Positions 3,001 to 17,766 of a stretch of 22,181 nt of DNA are shown one piece after another. The stretch covers positions 1 through 22,181 of IMG/VR virus record IMGVR_UViG_3300032240_000831; one strand, written 5' to 3'. Every line of letters starts with the position of its first letter. The stretch's first letter is position 1. A model generated the notes under the pieces. It ran no database searches. It was given only the letters and a program-made list of their open reading frames with translations, and was not told where the DNA came from. This stretch comes from a virus. The translations under genes were made by a program, and so were the position numbers.

Positions 3001-4713
3001 GTCACTGTTAGCAGGGAGAGGACTAGGGCCACTTGGTCCCATTTCTCCTTGAGGACCACTTGGGCCAGGACTGCCTGTATATCCGCGTGGGCCGCTTGGG
3101 CCACCTGGACCGGTTGGACCTGCTTGTCCTGTATCTCCAACATCGCCTTGTGGTCCTACAATAGGACCAACATCATTCCATTGTTCGTCAACAAGATTCC
3201 AGAACCATAAACTGCCGGGCAAGTGTGTACGTGCTGTAATGGTAATGGTACCCATCATCATCGCATGATATTGACAGATATAATAGTAAGTACCAGGAGC
3301 AACACCAGTAGTATCCCATACTACAGTTGCTGATTGCGATCCGTTGTTAGTTACTCCTGCTACAGCATTTCCTGTTCCAGTAGTAGGCGATGTTTTAATC
3401 CAGAAAGGATGCCCGCTGGCGCTGACATTAAATGTTAGTACAGAACCAGCAACCGCAGTAATAGATAAATCCGAGCCTGCTCCGCCACCACTGAATATAT
3501 AATCACTAGATCCGCTGTTGGTTACGTTATATGATTGACTTTCTAAAGGTGTACCTTCAGTGACAATCCACCCATCTCCGGGTTGTCCAGTAGCTGGTAG
3601 ATCAGCAATAGTATCTTTGGTACCTTGTAGAATTACACTTACACCTTGGTCACCAGTGCGACCACGTGCCCCTACTGGTCCACTAGGACCTACTGGACCT
3701 AATTCTCCAAGACCGGCTACGTTAGATTCTACCCAGTATCCATCATAGAATACATAATTCTTACCACCGACAGCATCAAACCATTGATCGCCTACTACAG
3801 CATCGTATGGAGGATTAGATTCAACAATGCTCTGAATGCTGGTTAGTGTGCCTTCGGCAGTAATGGTCAAGTTATGTCCAACACTGACATATCCAGTTTG
3901 TGTTGTTGTAGCTATTCTGGTTACAGGTAATCCATTAACCAATAAGTTACTGCCTGTGGTTGTTAATGCTACACCATTGATATATAAGCTATCCTTGGTG
4001 TAAATATTTTTCCATTGTTTGGCAATACTACCTAGGTTATATAAGTTATTAGTTGCTGGTAGTATGTTATGGAAACTAGCATTACCAGTTACTGTTAAAT
4101 CTGTAGTTGTGAATATTTGTGCAAATACTGTTCCAGTTGCTAGAACATTATTAAGCGTAGCAGTGTTACTTACAACCAAATTAGGAATAGTAGGAGTACG
4201 AGTGTAGGTAATGCTATCAACAGTTAAATTGTTAACAGTACCTGTGGTAATTGTAGCAGTTGATGCCAATAAATTTGTAACTGATGCTGTAGTAATATCA
4301 GCACGTACCACAGTTGCCAAAGGAATAACAGCATGAGCAAGTGTAGCTGTATTTGTCACTGTTAAATTAACAGCAGTTAAATTAATAATAGTTGCTTTGG
4401 AAATGCTAGCAGTAGTGACCAACAATAAATTAACTGTAGCGGTATCGCTAACTGTTAATACTCTAGTGTCTACCGTACCTGTTGTAGCAAAGTTATCAAC
4501 AGTGGCAGTTCCATTGATATCAATACCAGCAAAGTGAGGAATATCGTAAGTGTTCAATCCCTGGTTATAACTACTACCAGTATTTGTGCCTGTAGAAAAT
4601 GCGCCAGAACTTAACTGCGAGAAGTTATAGTTAATTTTATTGAATGCTGTGCGTAGCGTATCACCGTTACCAGCATTTGGTCCTGTACCGGTGTTAATAT
4701 ATAAAATAGTCAT
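1..4713 (-). CDS. Giant tail-fibre-like structural protein with collagen repeats and a cupredoxin-like module (C-terminus outside window)
   Basis: The minus strand is open from the ATG at 4713 to base 1, giving 1571 codons without a stop, so the gene runs off the window. The N-terminus (MTILYINTGTGPNAGNGDTL) is followed by about 300 residues rich in Thr, Ala and Asn. Gly-X-Y collagen-like stretches lie at about residues 333-353 and 518-565. Between them, at about 405-492, is a cupredoxin-like module with GHPFWIKT and YYYICQYHAMMMG, giving plausible His, Cys, His and Met metal ligands. The rest contains about eleven copies of a motif like W-F-G-x-D-G-x-L-T-L-P, roughly every 70-90 residues. 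Collagen triple helices and short beta repeats are typical of phage fibres that contact the host, so a tail or whisker fibre role is inferred. An SD-like AGGAA precedes the start. The exact structural role is unknown. Confidence 0.85.
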   Translation of the reverse strand, partial: MTILYINTGTGPNAGNGDTLRTAFNKINYNFSQLSSGAFSTGTNTGSSYNQGLNTYDIPHFAGIDINGTATVDNFATTGTVDTRVLTVSDTATVNLLLVTTASISKATIINLTAVNLTVTNTATLAHAVIPLATVVRADITTASVTNLLASTATITTGTVNNLTVDSITYTRTPTIPNLVVSNTATLNNVLATGTVFAQIFTTTDLTVTGNASFHNILPATNNLYNLGSIAKQWKNIYTKDSLYINGVALTTTGSNLLVNGLPVTRIATTTQTGYVSVGHNLTITAEGTLTSIQSIVESNPPYDAVVGDQWFDAVGGKNYVFYDGYWVESNVAGLGELGPVGPSGPVGARGRTGDQGVSVILQGTKDTIADLPATGQPGDGWIVTEGTPLESQSYNVTNSGSSDYIFSGGGAGSDLSITAVAGSVLTFNVSASGHPFWIKTSPTTGTGNAVAGVTNNGSQSATVVWDTTGVAPGTYYYICQYHAMMMGTITITARTHLPGSLWFWNLVDEQWNDVGPIVGPQGDVGDTGQAGPTGPGGPSGPRGYTGSPGPSGPQGEMGPSGPSPLPANSDGFLYNNGSGVLTWADLTNFNIELNKLKNNGYELVFGTDGTLTFPDQTVQTTAFTNGTSWDLTSQGNGCPIDVTLTTTTFDVQVPKNHLFFRDDGSWDIGSYVNETYITGDTSGGNGIALVTDRGTVLFGNSPEQCVPTQASHFHIMRDDPTTVDLFFGDDLNYVKLPYDSTLTNVGVQIGTDATNLWSFSKDGVLTLPSGNTRIGNINGLDVIIGSTGTAVGVLGQGTSGYVALEWVDNPEDATSVAAVVVNSPTASTSGTVQIATGLVADPAPENVWEFGADGTTTFPNNTLDAGTSTIAIKSTIISELEYINDNFQNVANEVFDAFVGVDSNGPYLVNLAVNSSGTDINLSTWSVDSNGNLVTSIIHELSTSTDVGDIVDMDGNSIIYTVAGETPPTRAPNGRLWYNSVEGRMYIRYTDLWVDASPTVIPPPSTYLGGLTVEDTTISAVNNTGTVSIATGVTNQWTFDTDGNLTLPAGGSIYGLDIIGGEGTNVQADHATEQVYIRSYNTQTQTQNEWIFGTDGALTVAKDIVVGNNDGHIYIDDDLSGASSIRWVNMNPSSAMLRVWSDGRNDLNNQRLELGYDIGGGLYITTTQNVDGIGNNPGDDFNWTFGTDGTLTLPDGSSVAGGFISGAPGQGAGITNGGTGYQQFFAQDDGAFVQTSVNNSGTVFNTWQFGLDSKLTFPNNSAFDGQTISNTNTGVNYTLKIANGGGAGSKFGIGTGNATYGIANDALNHTEDGYVPYTVTAQNINFLVPGTSGWTLDAGSTLTLPGSIYAREGNDLNLVVYNPTVEGTPGGVTFSVQNRDVATNHKTTQFDVGPADIVLTTAFSGARNEWTFAADGSLKLPAYGVIRGSDSTHQVNIVSSNFSQLQWTTPEGAAETDPNNTSSLTNWLYVDSDGITIQTNANTTQTNIWSFNNSGNITLPKGSVISETAETLSLQPATANPGQSLVIRPTASTWSVTASDYITYGSPITVTVNQTLVGQYFGTVNYEITG

Positions 4714-7565: not shown

Positions 7566-7889
7566 TTAGACCGAAAAACTTGATCCGCAACCGCAGGTAC
7601 TAGAAGCATTTGGATTTTGGATAACAAATTGGCTTCCCATAAGTTCTTCTTTGTATTCTATTGTAGCACCTTGCATATATTGAGCACTCATAGAGTCTAC
7701 TAAAATTTCCAATTCATCTCTGTTGACAACAAAATCGTCTTCGTTTATTTCTTCGTCTAATGTAAATCCATAACTAAATCCAGAACAACCGCCGCCTTGT
7801 ACAAACACCCTTAATTTAATTTTAGGATTGTTTTCTTCGGCAAGTATGTCCCGTATCTTTTCGATTGCGGTGTCAGTAATTGTAAGCAT
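7566..7889 (-). CDS. erpA: ErpA/IscA-type A-type iron-sulfur carrier
   Basis: A 107-residue HesB-family protein carrying all three cluster-ligand cysteines: C35 in GGGCSGF and C99/C101 in the terminal TCGCGSSF. It follows ErpA rather than IscA in detail ([34 protein letters not shown]), although the N-terminus is a few residues shorter than E. coli ErpA. Such proteins bind an Fe-S cluster as dimers and hand it to target apoproteins. In a phage it could mature a phage enzyme or support host Fe-S metabolism during infection. It is divergent from the 2OG-Fe(II) oxygenase gene 46 bases away, so the two iron-dependent functions share an intergenic control region. Lytic phages encoding such carriers are uncommon but not unprecedented. 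Confidence 0.93.
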
Positions 7890-7910
7890 GGTATATTTAC
7901 CCTATAAATA
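7880..7910 (+). promoter_or_regulatory. Candidate promoter of the oxygenase fusion gene, overlapping a T4-late-like box
   Basis: TTGTAA (7880-7885), 17 bases, TATAAA (7903-7908). TATAAATA at 7903-7910 exactly matches the T4 late-promoter octamer. A dyad GGTATATTTACC (7890-7901) fills the spacer and lies directly upstream of the erpA start on the other strand, so one protein bound here could affect both genes. Confidence 0.5.
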
Positions 7911-7935
7911 TCTTCCAGCCTATATTTTTATTTCA

Positions 7936-8976
7936 ATGACCTCATTTACCAAAAAAACTATCCCTTATACTAAAAAAATAGAAATCATTGACGGGATTCT
8001 CGACGAATCGGATATAAAATACTTATATAGTCCAAAAAGGCAAATGAGTTACGGATGGCCATCTAATAACCAAAAGAAATACGATCATGGACATTGGAAT
8101 TATTTTGTAGCAGGATCAAACAAAGAAGAAGATGAAAAACTAAACATAGATTGTCAATACAGTCCACAGTTTCTAAATTCAAATATTAATGCTATATGGA
8201 ATAGATTAAAAAAAATCATAGGTGAAAGAAAAGTAATACGTTGTTACTTTAACGGATATACCTATGGTACAGAAGGATATGTTCATCGTGATAGCCGAGC
8301 AGAAATACCTGGCTATAGACAAGAAACTGTGTTAATATATTGTACAGATGAATGGAAAGCAGATTGGGCAGGCGAGACACAGTTTCTCTGCGAAGATCAA
8401 AAAGAAATTGTCTACAGTACAATGCCTTTGCCAAATAGGATTGTATGTTTTGATTCAAGTATTCCCCATGTGGCCAGATCTGTTAGTAGATCTTACCCAG
8501 GACTTAGAACAATATTAGCACTTAAAACATCTGTGTTTAACATAGATGAACAACAGTGTATAGATTATATAAAAGAAAGAACAGAAGGCATTCCGCATAG
8601 TAGATCAACATTCTTTGAACATCTATACGGAACCTATGAAATTTTAAAAGGGTTAGGGTTATCTCAGGATGTATGTATGGCAGGACTATTTCATGCCATA
8701 TACGGAACCACATACTTCAAACATGATCTAACAGTTGATAGAGACGAAGTAAAACGATTAATTGGAGACTATGCCGAACATCTAGCCTACGAATTTTGTT
8801 CAATGCCAAACAGAACTCCTACCATTATTTCTAACAACAAAAAAGGAAATGTTGCTAAATCATTTCATCTTGCATGTATTGAATACGCAAATTTACTAGA
8901 GCAAGCGCCTAGATTTGAGGGCAAAAAAATAAGAGAAACAATAGATGAATTATATTCTATTGTTAGGGGAGATTAA
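7936..8976 (+). CDS. 2OG-Fe(II) dioxygenase fused to an HD-like (DUF6817-type) domain
   Basis: The frame is open from 7828, but the first 36 codons overlap erpA on the other strand. The ATG at 7936 gives 346 residues and fits the promoter. Residues about 90-200 are a prolyl-4-hydroxylase-like double-stranded beta-helix: HRD (H117, D119) and H178 would bind iron, with R185 or R191 as the 2-oxoglutarate ligand. Residues about 217-345 form a helical domain starting HSRSTFFEHLYGTYEILK and continuing CMAGLFHAIYGT, with H221, H229 and H253 as likely metal ligands. This resembles the DUF6817 HD-like family. The substrate is unknown; protein hydroxylation or modification of a nucleotide or small molecule are possible. 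No Shine-Dalgarno is visible, so initiation may rely on a short leader. It ends convergently, overlapping by 4 bases the gene at 8973. Confidence 0.85.
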   Translation: MTSFTKKTIPYTKKIEIIDGILDESDIKYLYSPKRQMSYGWPSNNQKKYDHGHWNYFVAGSNKEEDEKLNIDCQYSPQFLNSNINAIWNRLKKIIGERKVIRCYFNGYTYGTEGYVHRDSRAEIPGYRQETVLIYCTDEWKADWAGETQFLCEDQKEIVYSTMPLPNRIVCFDSSIPHVARSVSRSYPGLRTILALKTSVFNIDEQQCIDYIKERTEGIPHSRSTFFEHLYGTYEILKGLGLSQDVCMAGLFHAIYGTTYFKHDLTVDRDEVKRLIGDYAEHLAYEFCSMPNRTPTIISNNKKGNVAKSFHLACIEYANLLEQAPRFEGKKIRETIDELYSIVRGD

Positions 8977-16427: not shown

Positions 16428-16494
16428 GGGAGAATGGTGGATTCGGGTGTGAGAGAATGGTGAGAGAATGGTGAGAGAAAGATGAGAGAAAGAT
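16428..16494 (+). repeat. Five 11-bp iteron-like units
   Basis: Four contiguous units: GAGAGAATGGT at 16451-16461 and 16462-16472, then GAGAGAAAGAT at 16473-16483 and 16484-16494. A degenerate unit GGGAGAATGGT at 16428-16438 is set off by 12 bases. One helical turn per unit is typical of cooperative protein binding, as in origin iterons. Confidence 0.9.
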
Positions 16495-16500
16495 GATTTA

Positions 16501-16720: not shown

Positions 16721-16749
16721 TTGACCAAACTTGGAATGTGTGTTATACT
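16721..16749 (+). promoter_or_regulatory. Sigma70 promoter of the tRNA and structured RNA
   Basis: TTGACC (16721-16726), 17 bases, TATACT (16744-16749), ending 36 bases before the tRNA. The spacer holds a CCAA-AC-TTGG dyad. An 8-bp stem (16756-16763 with 16776-16783) lies between promoter and tRNA and may guide 5' processing. Confidence 0.8.
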
Positions 16750-16785: not shown

Positions 16786-16863
16786 GGGCCCTTAGCTCAT
16801 GTTGGTTAGAGCAGTGGACTCATAATCCATTGGTGCTGTGTTCGACTCACAGAGGGCCCACCA
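16786..16863 (+). tRNA. tRNA with anticodon CAT (Ile2 or elongator Met), CCA encoded
   Basis: A 78-nt cloverleaf. The 7-bp acceptor pairs GGGCCCT with AGGGCCC, then A and encoded CCA. The D stem is GCTC/GAGC, the anticodon stem GTGGA/TCCAT with loop CTCATAA (anticodon 16821-16823), and the T stem CTGTG/CACAG with TTCGACT. G1-C72 excludes initiator tRNA. The acceptor and D arm resemble bacterial tRNA-Ile2 (AUA decoding after lysidine modification) more than elongator Met, but this call is tentative. It is transcribed from 16721, and the structured RNA starts 18 bases downstream. Confidence 0.95.
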
Positions 16864-16881
16864 AGTTGTTTATAAACCCGA

Positions 16882-17125
16882 GGATGTGCGATATATACTG
16901 CAGGACAAGATCAGGAGCTAGAAGTCTGGGAGATCTTCGAGCGCAGTTGAGGTAACGACCTAGTCCGACCGTAAGCACGCCGAATCAGCGACCAAGTACT
17001 TCTAGTGGTCAAGGCTCGTCATCGAGAGATGGCAGGAACATGCTGGCGGGGACAGTGACAGGATACTTGCCTAGTCACTGAACTGAGAATGGGGCTTCGG
17101 CCCCTGTCTCTTATATACGCTGTCC
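16882..17125 (+). ncRNA. Unassigned structured RNA, about 245 nt, closed by a long-range helix
   Basis: No ORF is plausible, yet pairing is extensive. Ends: GCG-A-TATATA (16888-16897) pairs with TATATACGC (17112-17120) with one bulged A, extended by GGA (16882-16884) with TCC (17123-17125). Inside: CTAGAAGT (16918-16925) with ACTTCTAG (16998-17005); hairpin AGGT-AACG-ACCT (16950-16961); GTCATC-GAGA-GATGGC (17018-17033) with a GNRA loop; a 10-bp stem with one bulge (17053-17062 with 17070-17080); and GGGGC-TTCG-GCCCC (17091-17104) extended by GAGA/TCTC. The last helix has no real T-run, so it looks structural rather than terminating. It is probably cotranscribed with the tRNA. RNase P, tmRNA and group I core motifs were sought and not found. 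Confidence 0.65.
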
Positions 17126-17392
17126 GTATACATTAGTTTTACCGCAGTGCTTTAAGCTACCACGCGGCTTCACTGTAATACTACGGCGCGGCATGCGTGG
17201 CTTACATACAACAACTTGCACAGTGCCCTCACTGTAAGTGTAAAGTATGTCCTTTTGTTTAACTGTAGTGTGTAACATTTTGGCTCCTTTTTTGCAGTGT
17301 ATAGTGTATTATACGACATTTTGGATAACCCGTCAACCTCTCGGGACATTTGGCAGTGCCGGCGGTGTTGTGAAAATACAACAAAAAAAGTG
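17126..17392. other. Noncoding stretch with CAGTG-rich repeats
   Basis: No credible gene on either strand; the 101-codon minus frame at 17170-17475 runs across a strong plus promoter. It contains CACTGTAAGTGTAAAGT (17230-17246) and GCAGTGTATAGTGTAT (17294-17309), related to GCAGTGTAAGTGTATAGTG at 16694-16712 on the other side of the tRNA. A near-operator GTTTTACCG lies at 17136-17144. A TGTTGT/ACAACA inverted repeat followed by seven A residues precedes the promoter at 17393. Confidence 0.5.
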
Positions 17393-17421
17393 TTGACAAG
17401 TTGGTAAAACCACGTTATAAT
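17393..17421 (+). promoter_or_regulatory. Sigma70 promoter with spacer operator (class A), leaderless output
   Basis: TTGACA (17393-17398), 17 bases, TATAAT (17416-17421), with TGGTAAAACCA at 17402-17412. The predicted transcription start coincides with the ATG at 17428. Confidence 0.93.
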
Positions 17422-17427
17422 ACATAC

Positions 17428-17766
17428 ATGACACAGACAAACACCCCCCGTAAAAAGCGTGTAGATCGCAATCACATCATCTATGAGCTTCGCGTCAACG
17501 GGCTTAACTACATAGGGGTGACTGCTAAGACTGAAAGCACTGTACAGAAGTCAGTGCGTGTTCGTGCCAACAAGCACTTCTATCGTGCTAAGACTGAAGA
17601 CAAGAACTGGCTCTTGTGTGCTGAACTTCGCAAGCTCGCGAGCAAAGACGACATAGAGATCTTAGTGCACGAAGTAGTGCGTGGCAAGGCCGAAGCACAT
17701 CGTAGGGAAGTAGAGATCCGCCGGGCTGTAAAGCCCATGTTAAACACAGACACTAGAGGAGATTGA
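17428..17766 (+). CDS. GIY-YIG nuclease-like protein, probably leaderless
   Basis: The frame is open from 17401, but the first nine codons lie within the promoter. ATG 17428 gives 112 residues. GIY-YIG landmarks follow in order: HIIYEL (Y19) and LNYIGVT (Y28-I29-G30), basic helix QKSVRVRANKHFYRA (R44, R46, with H50), conserved Glu in HRREVEIRR (E94), and terminal Asn in PMLNTD (N106). The family cuts DNA using one metal ion and occurs as homing, repair or restriction enzymes. The ATG lies seven bases after the -10 box, so the mRNA would have almost no leader and no ribosome site. The next gene is one base away, so it is first in a two-gene unit. Confidence 0.8.
   Translation: MTQTNTPRKKRVDRNHIIYELRVNGLNYIGVTAKTESTVQKSVRVRANKHFYRAKTEDKNWLLCAELRKLASKDDIEILVHEVVRGKAEAHRREVEIRRAVKPMLNTDTRGD

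Follow-up and report, generated by a model that had tools for sequence, protein, structure and literature searches.

Does the DNA without a gene behind a phage tRNA encode a structured RNA of its own, and if so, of which kind? The question is raised by a 22-kb virus fragment (IMG/VR record IMGVR_UViG_3300032240_000831; its 22,181 nucleotides, analysed as a whole, are called the window here), which carries phage genes including those for a DNA ligase, an endolysin and a tail fibre. A first-pass annotation of the window had proposed an RNA of a new or unassigned phage family at 16882-17125, in a gene-free stretch behind a tRNA and a sigma70 promoter. These surroundings were recovered as described: no gene lies within 16874-17113, and tRNA and promoter precede the conserved part of the RNA in the following arrangement.

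16721-16749, plus strand: sigma70-like promoter with an extended -10 (TTGACC-17-TATACT with TG), predicted to serve the tRNA plus the RNA
16786-16863, plus strand: phage tRNA with anticodon CAU; Met according to ARAGORN, could be Ile2
16874-17089, plus strand: conserved RNA core of 216 nt; covariance model score 227 bits, E ~1e-72, the window being among the model's own sequences

Homologues and comparison with described RNA classes

Using the protein encoded downstream of the RNA (17428-17766) as query, we retrieved 80 viral loci, and blastn of 16864-17140 against these loci revealed a homologous RNA in 12 of them, at the same place and with 63-76% identity. The family was extended by a degenerate-pattern scan and then a profile search. 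When scored with covariance model R1, which is based on 14 sequences, members ranged from 236 down to 64 bits and the next score was about 10 bits; the one exception, at 39 bits, is a copy cut by a contig end (L132). A second model (R2) and a third pattern scan added L141/L145. Summed over these successive homologue searches, the RNA occurs in 43 viral records of one phage clade, with 26 distinct sequences and identities down to 42-47%. The conserved core measures 207-228 nt in 25 members, and a single copy per record was found in all 10 records searched whole. In dozens of records the RNA is flanked by tRNA-CAU on one side and by a member of one small protein family on the other.

When 50,697 phage records were searched directly with the RNA by blastn, only short chance or terminator matches were returned, and a concatenate of eight distant members gave no match in the phage collection. 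The RNA was found neither in the plasmid collection nor, using the model, in T4, PA5oct, Paride, phiHQ, Phosso or PhT2. An exact 25-base pattern taken from the window had no match in viral contigs, and one pattern scan of bacterial genomes yielded three chance matches and no member.

When the RNA region of the window alone was searched against Rfam with E up to 10, no relevant match was obtained, the two matches listed at E<=10 being far under their gathering scores and on the opposite strand. Likewise, cmscan of seven members' loci, distant ones included, gave no Rfam match at E up to 2, and none of the 4227 families of Rfam 15 gives a significant covariance-model match to the RNA. Because no described family matches, the RNA is a new family, one that is absent from Rfam 15 and new with respect to the literature covered, which consisted of open-licence PMC papers.

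Covariation and architecture of the RNA

For the analysis of base pairing we used alignment A4, which contains 25 distinct sequences (L141, the 26th, lies outside it). A4 was fitted to a nested structure, which favours nested helices, and the pseudoknots are outside that model; helices were read from the alignment and then counted. With pseudoknots allowed, 94.2% of 1300 cells in A4 are standard pairs, and 49 of the 53 base pairs change on both sides. Sliding the partners by one to three columns left only 33.6-40.0% of cells paired, none of 500 shuffles reached the observed pairing, and the covariation score was 0.786 as compared with 0.07-0.13 for slid partners and 0.228 for shuffles. In an earlier MAFFT alignment to which no structure had been fitted (A2), 95.8% of cells were paired and 40 of 50 pairs were compensatory. 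Both pseudoknots are free of alignment-fitting bias, since they are absent from the model. In addition, we applied a tree-aware G-test, in which the observed substitution number is redistributed on a FastTree tree in 40 simulated alignments; the test is a simplified form of the R-scape idea and not R-scape itself. Seventeen pairs, of which 15 are nested and one lies in each pseudoknot (columns 58-150 for K and 161-236 for T), exceeded practically all null scores, and most helices are supported by this test. The elements of the resulting fold are as follows.

16877-16880 / 17047-17050, plus strand: helix P1, which closes the domain holding P2 to P7
16897-16901 / 16943-16947, plus strand: helix P2a; two-sided changes in 5/5 pairs, four with a tree-aware E of 0 to 0.025
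16908-16912 / 16932-16936, plus strand: helix P2b; 98.4% of cells paired, 5/5 pairs compensatory
16918-16925 (loop L2) / 16998-17005 (loop L6), plus strand: pseudoknot K, an 8-bp kissing loop; 8/8 pairs compensatory
16957-16965 (stem 16957-16959/16963-16965), plus strand: small hairpin P3, GAC-CUA-GUC; 3 pairs, 100% paired, all compensatory
16970-16979, plus strand: hairpin P4, 2 bp and weak; kept with 63% of cells paired, weakly supported
16985-16989 / 17042-17046, plus strand: helix P5; 100% of cells paired, 5/5 pairs compensatory
16991-17009 (stem 16991-16994/17006-17009), plus strand: hairpin P6; 98% of cells paired, its loop L6 holds a kissing strand
17011-17013 (junction J6/7) / 17066-17068 (loop L8), plus strand: pseudoknot T, 3 bp; pair 17012-17067 above all null scores and paired in 25/25
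17018-17033, plus strand: hairpin P7; its loop is a GNRA tetraloop (GAGA) in the window but variable across the family; 6/6 pairs compensatory, 93% paired
17053-17080 (stem 17053-17059/17074-17080, inner pair 17061-17071), plus strand: hairpin P8; 8/8 pairs compensatory, 96% paired
17085-17118 (stem 17085-17110, T-rich tail), plus strand: intrinsic terminator P9, with the UUCG hairpin 17091-17104 in its stem

In P1, the pair 16879/17048 changes from C-G to G-C to U-A, is paired in 25 of 25 sequences and reaches E=0 in the tree-aware test, as does the P3 pair 16958-16964. P5 holds the highest-scoring pair of the RNA; it abuts P1 and bears hairpins P6 and P7. P2a and P2b form an arm whose loop L2 carries the first strand of K. 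The K pair 16922-17001 scores above every null value, and in distant members the whole helix is rebuilt (CUUACCA/UGGUAAG, CUUGCCG/CGGCAAG, CUUGAAG/CUUCAAG), one distant form having even swapped the strands (CUUCUAG/CUAGAAG). Pseudoknot T emerged from the tree-aware test with no prior assumption; it involves the loop of P8, the hairpin that follows P1, and this loop is conserved as GNNACYUGC. In L068, an unusual L8 loop is matched by a changed junction (CGG/CCG). A terminator follows every copy: in 28 of 29 copies, a hairpin followed by a T-rich tail begins at a common point, give or take a few bases, and the remaining one (L087) has an equivalent GGGGC-UUUG-GCCCC hairpin there with a lower script score. 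Junction J1/2 (window 16883-16898, GGAUGNNNGAUAUAURC) is strongly conserved and unpaired in the family, and no partner for it was found by covariation.

The minimum-energy fold is modest (z = -1.6, with 10 of 200 shuffles equally good), so that a single sequence would not settle the case; the homologues do. No ORF is conserved across the region in the 25 members, where every forward frame is interrupted in 25/25 and, apart from a single reverse frame in L011, no frame is open. Judged from these comparisons, the sequence that follows the tRNA does encode a structured noncoding RNA, conserved as RNA structure and not as protein. Given the lack of an Rfam match, the abundance of compensatory changes and the lack of a conserved ORF, the proposal of a new or unassigned phage RNA family holds.

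Several of the elements that had been read from the window alone find their place in this fold. The GNRA-capped hairpin corresponds to P7 and the bulged stem to P8, both with compensatory pairs, and the UUCG-capped hairpin turned out to be part of the terminator stem. The 8-bp long-range helix CUAGAAGU/ACUUCUAG (16918-16925/16998-17005) is real, but it forms the kissing pseudoknot K and not a nested helix; the second pseudoknot, T, had been missed. In contrast, the AACG hairpin is not conserved, and its bases are used by the strongly covarying P3. The annotation had further described complementary ends 220 bases apart, which would make this a 244-nt RNA whose ends, at 16882 and 17125, are joined by a long terminal helix. 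The window and its minimum-energy fold do contain such a helix, but relatives show no equivalent, and in nearly all of the 29 copies compared, the best pairing between the 5' strand of the RNA and the sequence following the RNA does not rise above the level of shuffles. The helix also involves bases that belong to or adjoin the covarying P2a and lies partly past the terminator, and covariation favours P1 as the closing helix; we therefore consider an RNA closed in this way extremely improbable. Because the terminal helix is without counterpart and the AACG hairpin is incompatible with P3, the borders shift from 16882-17125 to 16874-~17118, within what is otherwise the same stretch.

Neighbouring genes and carrier phages

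A tRNA-CAU lies upstream of the RNA in most members too, and a promoter-like site is present 5' of the RNA in nearly all members, beating shuffles in about half. Processing of the RNA together with the tRNA, as had been suggested, is plausible where a tRNA is present; it is optional, however, as no tRNA could be detected alongside the RNA in L042, L052-type members and L005. In L042 and L052, a promoter -10 box ends 16-18 nt 5' of the RNA. Since some lineages carry the RNA without the tRNA, it is not a tRNA-processing relic. We propose that a host-type RNA polymerase would transcribe tRNA and RNA from one sigma70-type promoter, and that the 5' end of the RNA would be freed by 3' processing of the tRNA or, where there is no tRNA, set by the close upstream promoter, while the terminator would set the 3' end. 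In the conserved structure, L2 kisses L6 and the P8 loop pairs with J6/7, and the resulting fold would be compact and self-docked.

The surroundings of the RNA show further sequence features. In the window, an 11-base repeat (GTGAGAGAATG) occurs four times at 16449-16496, 5' of the tRNA promoter, and comparable GAGAG-rich stretches are found ahead of the locus in L042 and L052. In L003, L089, L010, L068 and others, variable TATATAC/CACTATA-type repeats make up the spacer that separates the tRNA from the RNA. In many RNA-less clade members (L007, L008, L009, L014, L018, L020-L023, L029-L031, L033 and L035), tRNA-Arg(TCT) and tRNA-Leu(TAA) follow tRNA-CAU and sit at the place of the RNA, as if the site took up either the RNA or additional tRNAs as cargo; in L011, tRNA-Leu and the RNA occur together. 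Elsewhere in the window (7828-8976, plus strand), a 382-aa protein has an endonuclease V PHROG match and a C-terminal DUF6817; 2OG-Fe(II) oxygenase Pfam models overlap the endonuclease V match, and the PHROG name may mislead.

A compact conserved domain directly followed by an intrinsic terminator is also what would be expected of a riboswitch or leader that regulates, in cis, whether transcription ends before the downstream gene, and the downstream protein family is constant wherever the contig reaches, an argument that is partly circular because many loci were fetched through that protein. However, the distance between the RNA and this gene varies from 121 to 1263 nt, and in the window the gene has its own perfect consensus promoter (TTGACA-17-TATAAT at 17393-17421), both of which speak against control in cis, where a constant position and no independent gene promoter would be expected. 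Moreover, the downstream gene is kept in many relatives without the RNA, and terminator and core showed no conserved alternative pairing with each other. The RNA is thus probably not a leader, and we regard a riboswitch of this kind as very unlikely. The downstream protein itself (window 17428-17766) has 112 aa, is basic and occurs in more than 200 viral stretches; it has no match in Pfam, PHROG or PADLOC and no tblastn match in the 50,697 phage records, and visual inspection suggests a resemblance to a small GIY-YIG domain. What the locus encodes is very probably a structured, stand-alone, terminated and trans-acting RNA of ~215 nt plus terminator.

The terminase of L141, a record with the RNA, is 53% identical to those of PA5oct and Paride, which are Pseudomonas jumbo phages (Arenbergviridae); on protein comparison, the carriers form a clade of large phages whose relationship to the PA5oct group of Pseudomonas jumbo phages is distant. 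Many clade members are without the RNA, with scores near 10 bits as opposed to 64-236 bits, so that the group can evidently do without it. No diverged copy was found in RNA-less clade members with model R2, and 15 RNA-less loci contained no Rfam RNAs other than tRNA. On the protein tree, presence of the RNA requires about nine changes, of which well-supported branches force only two. Divergence of the RNA is loosely tied to that of the neighbouring genes (r = 0.32): the RNAs of L042 and L052 are 87% alike with 55% third-position identity in neighbouring genes, and those of L042 and L051 are 43% alike with 64%. This weak tie suggests exchange or fast turnover of the RNA module, in addition to losses. 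One RNA-less clade member, L059, encodes a beta-type permuted tmRNA (3684-4088, minus strand; RF04321 119 bits, RF01850 108.9 bits; tag ANDEVYALAA) at a distance of about 2 kb from the conserved neighbour gene. This tmRNA is unusual for a phage and suggests betaproteobacterial hosts. A tmRNA is, like the window RNA, a structured RNA that phages can carry, but the window RNA matches neither ARAGORN nor the Rfam tmRNA models.

Possible roles and relation to other phage RNAs

RNAs without an assigned function have been described next to phage tRNAs before, and we do not claim a categorically new system. ROOL RNAs have a length of ~600 nt and are thus much longer than the window RNA, which does not match the Rfam model of that family. 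They share with it that they are phage-borne, near tRNA islands and pseudoknotted, with a loop-junction contact, L8-J6/8 (PMC12286853). GOLLD RNAs are similar in being found in phages or prophages near tRNAs, with an elaborate fold and a conserved loop-junction contact, and GOLLD env-38 lies downstream of a Met-tRNA (PMC12286853). Many of them exceed 800 nt, however, whereas our RNA has ~215 nt plus terminator, a core of 207-228 nt and no match to the GOLLD model in Rfam. T4 RNAC and RNAD (species 1 and 2 RNAs) are small stable RNAs directly behind phage tRNAs, but they are shorter (139 and 119 nt) and without detectable similarity to the model, scoring 1.5 and 0.6 bits with filters off. In placement, the window RNA parallels T4 RNAC/RNAD, GOLLD and ROOL, and it is a member of none of them.

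With regard to function, our tentative guess is that the RNA acts during infection as a stable scaffold that may bind a protein or the host translation machinery, and not by antisense pairing, because its fold is compact and most of its loops are used internally. No conserved free hairpin loop is left as an antisense seed, though the junction GAUAUAU is conserved. Genes for TROVE (Y RNA), reverse transcriptase (retron) or TnpB/Cas12f (guide RNA) partners gave no match in 10 RNA-bearing records, which are possibly incomplete. A possible, if doubtful, alternative is a small homo-oligomer of the ROOL or GOLLD type, in which the L2-L6 contact, the L8-J6/7 contact or both would form between molecules. 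ROOL and GOLLD are likewise phage or prophage RNAs near tRNA islands, and their covarying contacts, L8-J6/8 and L20-J13/15, respectively, proved intermolecular (PMC12286853); a similar loop-junction contact covaries in the family described here, and K or T could therefore join molecules too. Nevertheless, the RNA has about a quarter of the length of GOLLD and no model match to either family, and both pseudoknots are also compatible with one chain, their covariation fitting contacts within one molecule as well as between molecules.

The patchy presence in the clade, with about nine changes on the protein tree though only two forced by well-supported branches, and the poor tie between RNA and neighbouring-gene divergence would also agree with a decoy or inhibitor directed against a host defence or host RNA-binding factor and kept only where the host makes it worthwhile. 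In line with this, the one SNP shared by host-adapted lines of a T4-like phage fell in the rnaC/rnaD region during adaptation to a new host strain (PMC12685909). Yet there is no known target and no defence-related gene beside the RNA, and patchiness also fits simple loss; we consider a decoy unlikely. Clearly unlikely in our view is that the RNA is the counterpart of T4 RNAC and RNAD, which occupy the same place just 3' of phage tRNAs in the T4 record and are expressed but still without a known role (PMC3014915, PMC9697503); besides the differences in length and the negligible bit scores, the whole T4 genome is without an R2 match, which excludes detectable homology and not a shared role. Returning to the compact fold on which the scaffold reading is based, it is conceivable, though doubtful, that the RNA represents a new self-docking class unrelated to described families, acting as a kissing-loop homo-oligomer or in a dedicated RNP, with the module being exchanged within the clade.

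Phages of very different kinds keep structured RNAs by their tRNA genes, as GOLLD, ROOL and T4 RNAC/RNAD illustrate, and the roles of these RNAs are not known. With ~215 nt and two pseudoknots, the RNA described here is short enough to be transcribed in vitro, probed and taken to structure determination, and a covariance model is now available for annotating uncultured phages. This RNA class makes the role of tRNA-linked phage RNAs easier to test.
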